This document shows, piece by piece, positions 10,605 to 13,389 of a stretch of 13,389 nucleotides of DNA (position 1 is its first letter; each line of letters opens with the position of its first letter). The DNA comes from Paludibacter sp. Lineage in GTDB: Bacteria; Bacteroidota; Bacteroidia; Bacteroidales; Paludibacteraceae. A program made the translations under genes and the position numbers. The DNA is taken from assembly GCA_030655595.1 (NCBI GenBank), contig JAUSNQ010000135.1, forward strand, positions 1-13,389, given 5' to 3'. The notes under the pieces were generated by a model that saw only the letters and a program-made list of their open reading frames with translations, was not told the origin of the DNA and did not search any database.

Positions 10605-12722
10605 ATGGCTAAAGGAGATTTAAGTTATAATAGAAATATCGGTATCATGGCGCATATCGATGCTGGTAAAACAACTACATCAGAACGTATTTTGTTTTAT
10701 ACCGGTTTGACTCACAAAATTGGTGAGGTGCATGATGGTGCTGCCACGATGGACTGGATGGAGCAGGAGCAGGAAAGAGGTATTACTATTACTTCAGCTG
10801 CTACGACTACGTCCTGGGATTATTTAGGCGAAAAATACAAAATAAATTTAATTGACACCCCGGGACACGTTGACTTTACCGTTGAGGTAGAGCGTTCATT
10901 GCGTATTCTGGATGGTGCTGTTGCTGCATTTTGTGCCGTAGGAGGTGTTGAACCTCAGTCGGAAACAGTGTGGCGTCAGGCTGATAAATATAATGTGCCA
11001 CGAATTGGTTTCGTAAATAAGATGGACCGTTCAGGTGCTGATTTTTATGAAGTTGTTCGTCAGGTAAAAGAAGTGTTAGGTGCAAAACCATGTCCCATTC
11101 AAATTCCAATCGGAGCTGAAGAGAAATTCAAAGGCGTTGTGGATTTGGTTAAGATGAAAGCAATTCTTTGGCACGATGAGGCCATGGGCTCTCAATATGA
11201 TGTTGAAGAAATTCCTGCTGATTTGCTTGCAGAAGCACAGGAATGGAGAGATAAAATGCTCGAGATTGTAGCCGAATATGATGATGTTTTGATGGAGAAA
11301 TATTTTGATGACCCTTCAACAATCACTGAAGATGAAATCAAAGTTGCAATCCGCAAAGCAACCCTTTCGATGGAAATCAATCCCATGATTTGTGGTTCGG
11401 CATTCAAAAACAAAGGTGTACAAACCATGCTTGATGCTGTTTGTGCTTACCTGCCAAGTCCGCTGGATACTCCCGAAATTATTGGTTTAGATCCTCGTTT
11501 TGAGGACAAACAAGTTATTCGTCATCCGGATGCCAACGAACCTTTGTGTGCCCTGGCATTCAAAATCGCAACTGACCCCTATGTTGGTCGTCTTTGTTTC
11601 TTCCGTGTTTATTCAGGAAAACTTCCTGCCGGTTCTTACGTTTACAATACCCGATCTGATAAGAAAGAGCGTATTTCACGTATTTTCCAAATGCATTCAA
11701 ACAAACAGAATCCTGTTGATGTAATTTCTGCAGGTGACATTGGTGCCGGTGTAGGTTTCAAAGATATTCGTACCGGTGATACTTTATGCGACGAAGCACA
11801 TCCGATTACATTAGAATCGATGGATTTTCCGGATCCTGTAATTGGAATTACAGTTGAACCGAAAACTCAAAAGGATTTAGATAAATTGGGTATCGGTCTG
11901 TCAAAATTGGCCGAAGAGGATCCTACATTTACCGTACATACGCAAGAACAAACCGGTCAGACAATTATTTCAGGAATGGGTGAACTCCACCTCGAAATTA
12001 TCATCGATCGTTTGAAACGCGAATTTAAAGTTGAATGTAACCAAGGTCGTCCGCAGGTATCTTACAAAGAAGCAATTTCCCAATCAGTTGAAATCCGTGA
12101 GGTTTACAAGAAACAATCGGGTGGACGCGGTAAATTTGCCGATATGATTGTACGTGTTGAACCTGCAGATAAAGATTTCGATGGATTACTACAGTTTGTT
12201 GACTTAGTTAAAGGAGGAAATATTCCCAGAGAATTTATTCCTTCTATTCAAAAAGGATTTAATGCTGCCATGAAAAATGGTGTGTTGGCTGGATATCCGA
12301 TGGATAATTTAAAGGTTACTGTATTGGATGGTTCATTCCACGCAGTTGACTCTGATCAGCTTTCATTTGAAATTTGTGCTCAGATTGCATTTAAAACAGC
12401 TTGCGCCAAAGCAAAACCAATACTTTTGGAACCCATCATGAAAATGGAAGTGGTTACTCCCGAAGAGAATATGGGTGATGTAATCGGTGACTTAAACAAA
12501 CGCCGCGGTCAGGTAGAAGGTATGGAATCGAGTCGCACCGGAGCCCGGATTGTGAAAGCAAAAGTTCCTTTGGCAGAAACATTCGGATATGTAACCGCAT
12601 TGCGTACAATTAGTTCCGGTCGTGCAACTTCTTCGATGGAATTTTCACATTATGCTGAAGTTTCAAGTTCTATTGCAAAAACAGTAGTTACCGAAGCAAA
12701 AGGAAAAGTAGAATTATTATAA
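10605..12722 (+). CDS. fusA: Elongation factor G
   Basis: EF-G is the GTPase that drives tRNA-mRNA translocation and, with RRF, ribosome recycling. The 705 residues contain the full five-domain protein: the P-loop AHIDAGKTT at 16-24, switch I ERGITIT at 57-63, DTPGH at 84-88, NKMD at 138-141, and GSAF at 264-267 for guanine recognition. Domain III follows with [14 protein letters not shown]. The domain IV tip carries GSFHAVDSD with His579, at the position that reaches the decoding site. Domain V ends with [15 protein letters not shown]. Its place after rpsL-rpsG marks it as the main translational EF-G rather than a divergent paralogue. A perfect terminator-like hairpin follows the stop after six bases. 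Confidence 0.98.
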
Positions 12723-12728
12723 AGTGAT

Positions 12729-12768
12729 ACATCCGGTTAGCGAATGACTCTTAACCGGATGTTTTATA
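12729..12768 (+). terminator. Intrinsic terminator or attenuator between fusA and rpsJ
   Basis: ACATCCGGTTA (12729-12739) and TAACCGGATGT (12752-12762) are perfect complements, 11 base pairs with a 10-11 nt loop, and the right arm runs into TTTTATA. It begins six bases after the fusA stop. The shape is that of a rho-independent terminator at the str/S10 junction. No promoter box is recognisable in the 30 bases between it and rpsJ, so partial read-through (attenuation) is likely. Confidence 0.8.
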
Positions 12769-12793
12769 CAATCTAAAAATAAATTAAAACGAT

Positions 12794-13099
12794 ATGAGTC
12801 AAAAAATCAGAATTAAATTAAAATCTTACGATCACAGCCTGGTTGATAAATCAGCAGAAAAAATCGTAAAAACAGTGAAAGCTACAGGTGCACATGTAAG
12901 TGGTCCAATTCCATTACCAACGCACAAAAGAATTTTCACCGTGAACCGTGCAACATTCGTGAATAAAAAGTCACGCGAACAATTTCAATTGTCATCATTC
13001 AAACGTTTGATTGACATTCACAACTCATCTGCCAAAACAGTAGATGCATTGATGAAACTCGAATTGCCAAGCGGGGTAGAAGTTGAAATTAAAGTGTAA
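12794..13099 (+). CDS. rpsJ: 30S ribosomal protein S10
   Basis: S10 is a head protein of the 30S subunit and, as NusE, part of transcription antitermination and transcription-translation coupling complexes. The 101 residues are the family length. Landmarks are [23 protein letters not shown] (about 3-25), the extended loop [16 protein letters not shown] (about 37-52), and [20 protein letters not shown] (about 60-79). It is the first gene of the S10 operon in most bacteria. Here it follows fusA by 71 bases with a strong hairpin between and no clear promoter of its own. Its stop codon lies in the motif GTGTAA, and the same hexamer then recurs seven times in the spacer downstream. Confidence 0.98.
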
Positions 13100-13105
13100 A
13101 GAAAT

Positions 13106-13161
13106 GTGTAATCGTGTAACTGTGTAATTGTGTAACTGTGTAATTGTGTAAACGTGTAATC
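13106..13161 (+). repeat. Tandem GTGTAANN octamer array (seven units)
   Basis: GTGTAA starts at 13106, 13114, 13122, 13130, 13138, 13146 and 13154, exactly every eight bases. The last two bases vary (TC, CT, TT, CT, TT, AC, TC). An eighth degenerate unit, ATGTACAC, follows at 13162. The array lies in the rpsJ-rplC spacer and is not coding. Confidence 0.95.
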
Positions 13162-13163
13162 AT

Positions 13164-13225
13164 GTACACCCCACACGCCTACACCCCTACACCCCTACAC
13201 ATTTAAAACCCTACACCCCTACACA
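13164..13225 (+). repeat. Opposed CCTACACC octamer array
   Basis: TACAC occurs at 13180, 13188, 13196, 13212 and 13220, still on an eight-base register, with degenerate CACAC at 13172. One unit position (about 13201-13209) is replaced by an AT-rich interruption, ATTTAAAAC. The TACAC cores are the reverse complement of the GTGTA cores in the preceding array, so the two arrays can pair as 5-bp blocks separated by 3-nt mismatches around a TGTACA centre (13163-13168). Confidence 0.9.
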
Positions 13226-13266
13226 ATTAATCGATTTCACAAATAAACAATAAATAATTAATTGAA

Positions 13267-13389
13267 ATGCCAGGATTATTAGGAAAAAAAATCGGAATGA
13301 CATCCGTTTTCAGTGCCGACGGTAAAAACGTACCGTGCACTGTTATCGAAGCAGGTCCTTGTGTTGTTACCCAAATCAAATCAGTTGAT
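13267..13389 (+). CDS. rplC: 50S ribosomal protein L3 (3' partial)
   Basis: L3 is an early-assembling 50S protein that reaches the peptidyl-transferase centre. Only the first 41 codons are present before the window ends, in frame to the last base. They read [20 protein letters not shown] followed by [21 protein letters not shown], the standard bacterial L3 start (GKKxGMT, then the [13 protein letters not shown] strand). It follows rpsJ by 167 bases, most of which is the octamer repeat region. The last 40 or so bases before the ATG are AT-rich without a recognisable promoter or Shine-Dalgarno sequence. Confidence 0.96.

Follow-up and report, generated by a model that had tools for sequence, protein, structure and literature searches.

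Facing octamer arrays between rpsJ and rplC in a Paludibacter genome belong to a class of 7/8-bp intergenic arrays found across sampled Bacteroidota

The closest described systems are the G-rich intergenic heptamer repeats of Xanthomonas (GGGAATC) and Nostoc (GGGGA(C/T)T) (PMC4692102). In Xanthomonas the G-rich strand of GGGAATC is sense when the repeats lie <50 bp from stops and antisense when they lie <50 bp from starts; the repeats are under-represented between divergent genes, the majority are transcribed, and pairs of facing sites number 70 in Xcc and 75 in Xac, with only a few in Nostoc (PMC4692102). The same paper discusses the Xanthomonas repeats as quadruplex-forming heptamers. Another heptamer, TAACTGA, forms intergenic arrays in Beggiatoaceae, some Cyanobacteria and five Bacteroidetes, also 5' of fusA and of the L3 gene; other heptamer repeats are mentioned in the same Bacteroidetes regions, and one inverted case is given among the 170 sets of the main genome (PMC4679880). 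Long simple sequence repeats with 1-11 bp units were surveyed by Mrazek and co-workers (2007, as summarised in PMC4679880), who found heptamers to be the most abundant class in most genomes and proposed slippage as their source. An octamer-derived satellite family is noted for Mesorhizobium, together with 6-8-base units in Burkholderia (PMC6749651). Targeted literature searches, for which subscription journals were mostly outside scope, gave no account of facing 7/8-bp arrays in Bacteroidota among their best matches.

The window, a 13,389-nucleotide stretch of Paludibacter sp. DNA, ends on its right with rpsL, rpsG, fusA, rpsJ and the start of rplC. Its EF-G shares 85% identity with that of a MAG labelled Prevotellaceae and 84% with that of a Paludibacter jiangxiensis MAG; its glycine C-acetyltransferase matches two Paludibacter sp. 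proteins at 88 and 86%, with other nearest matches at 93-95%. The gene upstream of the arrays, rpsJ (S10; 12794..13099, plus strand), was identified from the ORF list and by Pfam Ribosomal_S10 (E 1.9e-35). Downstream, rplC (L3; 13267..13389, plus strand) is present as its start only, the contig ending within it. Its 41 residues have no Pfam match by themselves; 35 of them are identical to the product of L007:3987-4595, which matches Pfam Ribosomal_L3 (E 1.9e-14). The spacer between the two genes comprises 167 bases (13100-13266).

Fifteen octamers in one unbroken frame fill 13106-13225 of this spacer. The 5', G-rich arm (13106..13161, plus strand) consists of seven GTGTAANN octamers, evident in the letters, by TRF and in a core scan, with GTGTAA cores starting at 13106, 13114, 13122, 13130, 13138, 13146 and 13154. 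The centre octamer ATGTACAC (13162..13169), seen in the letters and the core scan, contains the palindrome TGTACA. The 3', C-rich arm (13170..13225, plus strand) reads CCCACACG, CCTACACC twice, CCTACACA, TTTAAAAC, CCTACACC and CCTACACA, its cores being complementary to those of the 5' arm: TACAC starts at 13180, 13188, 13196, 13212 and 13220, and CACAC at 13172. The TACAC of the centre (13165) is one base off the register of these downstream cores. The AT-rich interruption TTTAAAAC (13202..13209) is exactly one octamer long, so the register stays intact. Read on the minus strand, the 3' arm is made of GTGTAGGG, GTGTAGGC and GTGTGGGG plus the single AT-rich unit. Each unit can thus be divided into a five-base core, GTGTA, common to both arms, and a three-base tail that differs by arm, AHY in the 5' arm and GGG or GGC in the 3' arm (minus-strand reading); the 5' arm holds no G-runs. 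TRF detected both arrays, each with period 8, and the stretches 13105-13158 and 13188-13241 are 70% complementary. An AT-rich leader (13226..13266, plus strand) that includes AAACAATAAATAATTAATTG precedes rplC, and AAACAATAAATAATTAATTG itself recurs unchanged in a relative (L210).

Like the Xanthomonas repeats, the window has an inverted array pair in one gap, with the G-rich strand sense after the stop and antisense before the start (skew 0.52 over 13100-13165 and -0.84, C over G, over 13166-13266). The placement rules are therefore not new in kind, since the GGGAATC heptamers follow them in print. In contrast to the Xanthomonas and Nostoc heptamers, the window unit measures 8 bp and not 7, its arms combine a common core with arm-specific tails, and the Bacteroidota units examined below are of many types, 50 of 55 lacking three G or C in a row. 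The window shares with TAACTGA the intergenic position and the site before the L3 gene; unlike the window, TAACTGA is a fixed single heptamer unit, direct, and mostly located shortly upstream of start codons. The simple sequence repeats of Mrazek, as summarised in PMC4679880, come without an inverted arrangement or a rule for Bacteroidota.

DNA uptake sequences of Neisseriaceae are single longer words and not tandem arrays, and inverted pairs of them act as terminators. They occur in dialects, that is, short words typical of a lineage (PMC3630211), and the Bacteroidota array words likewise are short and tend to be lineage-typical.

An initial annotation of this DNA had described seven octamers, a TGTACA centre and complementary downstream octamers, all in one eight-base register through the centre and the AT-rich unit; the core positions, the frame and shuffling all bear this out. 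In the spacer the longest period-8 run of a pentamer is 7; dinucleotide shuffling of the spacer (2000 times) never gave more than 3, nor did 100 shuffles of the whole window. Folding of 13090-13275 as RNA, which the annotation had proposed as a check, gave -36.3 kcal/mol, while shuffles averaged -25.4 (z -3.25) and 1 of 200 did as well; the spacer folded alone reached z -5.5. The predicted transcript stem is a series of 5-bp helices with three-base internal loops between them. No intrinsic terminator, defined as a G+C-rich hairpin followed by a T-run, was found in 12720-13389, and no Rfam family matched the window at gathering score. The GTGTAA that closes rpsJ, to which the annotation had drawn attention, is indeed present at 13094. 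It is out of register and also ends 15 of the 149 Bacteroidota rpsJ genes examined (window counted); we therefore regard it as a coincidence, and a role as seed of the array was rejected.

To place the feature we used an array-blind set of 140 Bacteroidota stretches (2.2 Mb), made up of 80 loci from an EF-G search and 60 Bacteroidales stretches. With genes called crudely as longest ORFs, and with analyst-set array thresholds of which several were tried, this set held 85 intergenic tandem arrays of period 4-21, 41 of them with period 7 and 14 with period 8 (55 of 85). The other 30 were distributed over periods 4 (7), 11 (6), 14 (6, twice 7), 12 (3) and 21 (2), with one array each at periods 5, 9, 13, 15, 16 and 18. 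Periods 5, 6, 9 and 10 together thus account for 2 arrays, versus 41 and 14 for periods 7 and 8. In a Markov control for the intergenic segments (three replicates), no period yielded more than 0.67 arrays per replicate, and intergenic arrays were absent from 350 kb of E. coli K-12. Only five of the 55 array-blind period-7/8 arrays have a consensus unit with three G or C in a row. The window feature has period 8, is intergenic, places its G-rich array first and does not lie between divergent genes; it belongs to this class of 7/8-bp intergenic arrays found across the sampled Bacteroidota. A similar architecture of facing arrays is seen in other genomes too.

Placement was examined in 1053 gaps, which include stretches of the genomes G457 and G428 (fetched for their S10-spacer arrays) and G546, all three being excluded from the 140 array-blind stretches. 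Arrays were present in 52 of 757 tandem gaps, 10 of 108 convergent gaps and 5 of 188 divergent gaps (Fisher p 0.020). When arrays with a skew beyond 0.2 were considered, those in the first half of tandem gaps were G-rich in 22 cases and C-rich in 4, and those in the second half G-rich in 5 and C-rich in 23; convergent gaps gave 4 G-rich and 1 C-rich, then 1 G-rich and 6 C-rich. No such switch occurred in 40-mers of array-free tandem gaps (G-rich:C-rich 188:97, then 157:126). Array edges were close to stops (15 nt or less) in 35 of 70 cases, and as close to starts in 23 of 58.

An inverted partner at 75% match was found for 21 of 64 arrays, compared with 5 direct, 3 reversed and 6 complement controls; at 80% match the count was 11 of 64, compared with 4, 2 and 3. 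For octamers only, at 80% match, it was 1 of 14 versus 0 direct, 0 reversed and 1 complement, and a separate set of octamer arrays gave 7 of 16 with an inverted partner at 16 or more matches in 20 (1 direct, 1 reversed). From facing pairs one cannot tell selection for pairing apart from strand composition shaped by selection or mutation, because G-first polarity alone makes neighbouring arrays face each other. The initial annotation had suggested that the arrangement reflects either an inverted duplication or selection for pairing. Complementarity, the single register and folding above chance agree with it as far as pairing goes, and the arm-specific tails and the unmirrored unit order tell against duplication. 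In the 26 arrays tested that have an inverted partner, variant units did not follow a mirrored order overall (combined p 0.10), which speaks against one arm having been copied into the other; inverted duplication as a general source was accordingly rejected. Exceptions with mirrored order at p < 0.05 were L249 (0.015) and L017 (0.035). The pair at L249:1850-1988 (genome G457) lies between convergent genes; its heptamer arms give an almost perfect stem and, unlike most pairs, mirror each other in variant order.

The unit of an array tends to be typical of its genome. For arrays found by periodicity alone, unit similarity at period 7 was 0.639 within and 0.571 between genomes (0 of 5000 permutations), G457 and G428 contributing 30 of the 68 period-7 arrays; at period 8 it was 0.738 within and 0.647 between genomes (64 of 5000 permutations). 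The annotation had proposed to seek the window's own unit in relatives. Three copies of GTGTANNN occurred in none of 10 relatives' genomes, and of the 393 genomes searched in the order, 4 had four copies; the exact unit does turn up elsewhere in the order, and it was rejected as a family trait. Four copies of the reversed pattern ATGTGNNN, meant as a control, matched 38 of the 393 genomes by hand count and proved to be other genomes' octamers. Four-octamer matches of this pattern per strand numbered 98 and 94 in G198 and 85 and 83 in G079; arrays are fewer than matches because matches overlap and a long array is counted many times, the 88 overlapping matches of G230, for example, representing 9 clusters. 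In the stretches around the matches, the main units were ATGTG[AG]TA in G230, ATGTG[AT]TG in G361 and GTGTARRR in G039. These three genomes were picked for their arrays, and the constancy of their core is unusable as evidence since the search pattern fixed it. G230 (L122-L128) has several words in one genome: its ATGTG[AG]TA octamers adjoin GGAAGAC-type heptamers, in arrays of up to 481 bp.

We then compared the rpsJ-rplC spacer itself, which could be read in 142 of 149 records with rpsJ. For the family of the window, 200 genomes were searched and 177 matched; the 70 spacers used comprise the best 30, 40 near the top and the window, with L303 lacking a spacer. Partial matches and contig ends were skipped in this choice, and L001, the same genome as L227, enters once per spacer set. 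Of the family spacers, 45 measure at least 60 bp and 20 less than 40 bp. Period-7/8 arrays were found in eight of the 70 (the window, L210, L215, L216, L281, L288, L289 and L315), a period-7 flag in L223 being discounted as AT-rich, and in three of 30 long spacers of another set (L027, L040 and L053) that includes some family members. The initial annotation had called for such a comparison across relatives, and at this site arrays do vary, relatives carrying other units, unrelated palindromes or nothing. In the same spacer, L210 and L281 have octamers, and L215, L216, L288, L289 and L315 have AGTTACR-type heptamers. Both arms exceed the array threshold in the window, L215 and L315 only and one arm does so in the other five, of which L210, L216, L281 and L288 have by eye a shorter complementary 5' stretch and L289 has none. 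L210 is 84% identical to the window over the adjoining DNA, with GTTGAANN in a short 5' arm and GTTTAANN in the 3' arm. At the third base of the unit both L210 arms have T and both window arms G, a difference that is suggestive of one paired change.

Folding was applied to spacers of at least 55 bp; the 67 shorter ones have no period-7/8 array. The annotation's view that ribosomal operons rarely tolerate such inserts is not supported at this junction, given the 45 long family spacers, 22 of which fold at z < -2, as do 20 of the 30 others. The array spacers of L210 and L216 reach z -1.7 and -0.3 only. The closest relative by DNA among the 200 family genomes searched (L209, 86%) has no array and instead a long CCCCCTGAAGGGGG-type palindrome (z -6.9). 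Long GCCCCCTAACCCCCTAAAGGGGG-type palindromes fill the spacers of L209, L228 and L238 (z -6.9, -8.0 and -4.5, respectively) and look like a separate repeat. An array is thus not needed at the junction, since L209 lacks one and 20 of 70 family spacers are shorter than 40 bp. Nor do arrays simply replace a hairpin, because in L216 and L288 a separate hairpin lies beside the array. The rpsJ/rplC junction often bears some hairpin, of many unrelated kinds. Such a pattern fits a boundary between the rpsL-rpsG-fusA-rpsJ and rplC clusters, at which a hairpin would have a plausible job, and it fits equally a gap where inserts harm little.

Two further elements were noticed at this junction. In 12 of the 142 spacers, all at Flavobacteriaceae-type loci (L049, L052, L053, L055, L056, L057, L063, L064, L065, L067, L072 and L077), a conserved ATGTCC ... 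GGRAAARACGG is present; by eye, the ATGTCC element is followed by a hairpin and a T-run ahead of rplC, and 11 of the 12 could be aligned. It has the look of a so far undescribed ribosomal leader that carries an attenuator. The spacers of L052, L055 and L063 had no Rfam match, and the ribosomal leader table of PMC7247131 has no entry for rplC in Bacteroidetes. Just 5' of rplC lies a short conserved hairpin, CCGATCCCCC-loop-GGGGTTARGGGT and variants of it; a pattern search located it in 12 spacers, and visual inspection added L218, L223, L235 and L293 (loci L212, L218, L222, L223, L229, L233, L234, L235, L280, L288, L291, L292, L293, L297, L306 and L317; 13 of 16 aligned). L306 shows an apparent compensatory change in it (CCAC/GTGG), the spacers of L223 and L229 had no Rfam match, and the window lacks it. 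This hairpin is a possible rplC leader of the window's family.

In the reading that we prefer, and to which we give an even chance, the arms arose by slippage and have been retained as a hairpin in the mRNA between rpsJ and rplC, one that would tune passage to rplC. A short palindromic seed, represented by TGTACA in the centre, may have been extended outwards by replication slippage, each arm independently, with a unit length of 7-8 bp presumably favoured by the replication machinery. Arms behind genes would be kept or tolerated because the transcript forms a long interrupted hairpin, and at this junction the hairpin most likely would tune transcription or mRNA flow from rpsJ to rplC, candidate modes being partial termination, pausing, or processing with end protection. 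The putative hairpin may attenuate the operon or protect mRNA, as the annotation had it. Weighing against this reading are the negative terminator search, the breaks in the stem after every five pairs, the array-free spacer of L209 and the short spacers elsewhere in the family, the single-armed arrays of five relatives, the weak folds of L210 and L216, the fall in inverted partners at 80% match, array edges near starts as well as stops, the separate hairpins of L216 and L288, and the 30 arrays of other periods. The arrays could also be, with a smaller but substantial probability, a neutral by-product of slippage and template switching on chance quasi-palindromes, persisting where they harm little, mostly behind stops, and functionless between rpsJ and rplC. 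Arrays are in the minority at this spacer (8 of 70 in the family), the set of periods is as narrow as a mutational process may give, their rarity between divergent genes fits plain tolerance, and the unmirrored unit order makes the arms seem to grow separately. By itself this account does not explain why units are common to loci of one genome or why G-rich arrays come first. A selected 3'-end hairpin is slightly favoured over a tolerated slippage product because of polarity, facing pairs and shared words.

The same sharing of units among loci within genomes, together with a window core that is constant in both arms beside a variable tail, would be expected if a cell protein recognised the core, a putative binding that we hold to be quite unlikely. 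A broader proposal, in which lineage-typical 7-8 bp words, set in facing arrays behind genes, form a widespread and rapidly evolving system of hairpins or binding sites read by some factor of the cell, with words drifting genome-wide like dialects and the window array replacing the leaders or terminators of relatives at rpsJ/rplC, is in our estimate unlikely. Over 13166-13266 C greatly outnumbers G (skew -0.84), C-rich steps recur at regular spacing and the upstream arm is complementary; these are points in favour of a rut-like site, Rho preferring C-rich RNA. Untranslated RNA would then recruit Rho through the C-rich, G-poor 3' arm unless the G-rich 5' arm masked that arm by pairing, and rplC would be preceded by a polar switch; this is speculative, and we judge it very improbable. 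That the arrays are an assembly artefact or due to chance is barely credible: the contig does stop 123 bases into rplC, but the two arms are unlike in sequence, the same architecture occurs in other genomes, and the run length was never reached in shuffles. Quadruplexes cannot be the general basis of the arrays, since G-runs are missing in the 5' arm of the window and in 50 of the 55 array-blind units.

Much the same rules as in Xanthomonas apply in the sampled Bacteroidota with many unrelated units, some of them 8 bp long. That these units are unrelated, mostly lack three G or C in a row and include octamers suggests a common cause other than quadruplexes. At a ribosomal protein gene junction, mutational drift and selected hairpins can now be tested directly against each other.
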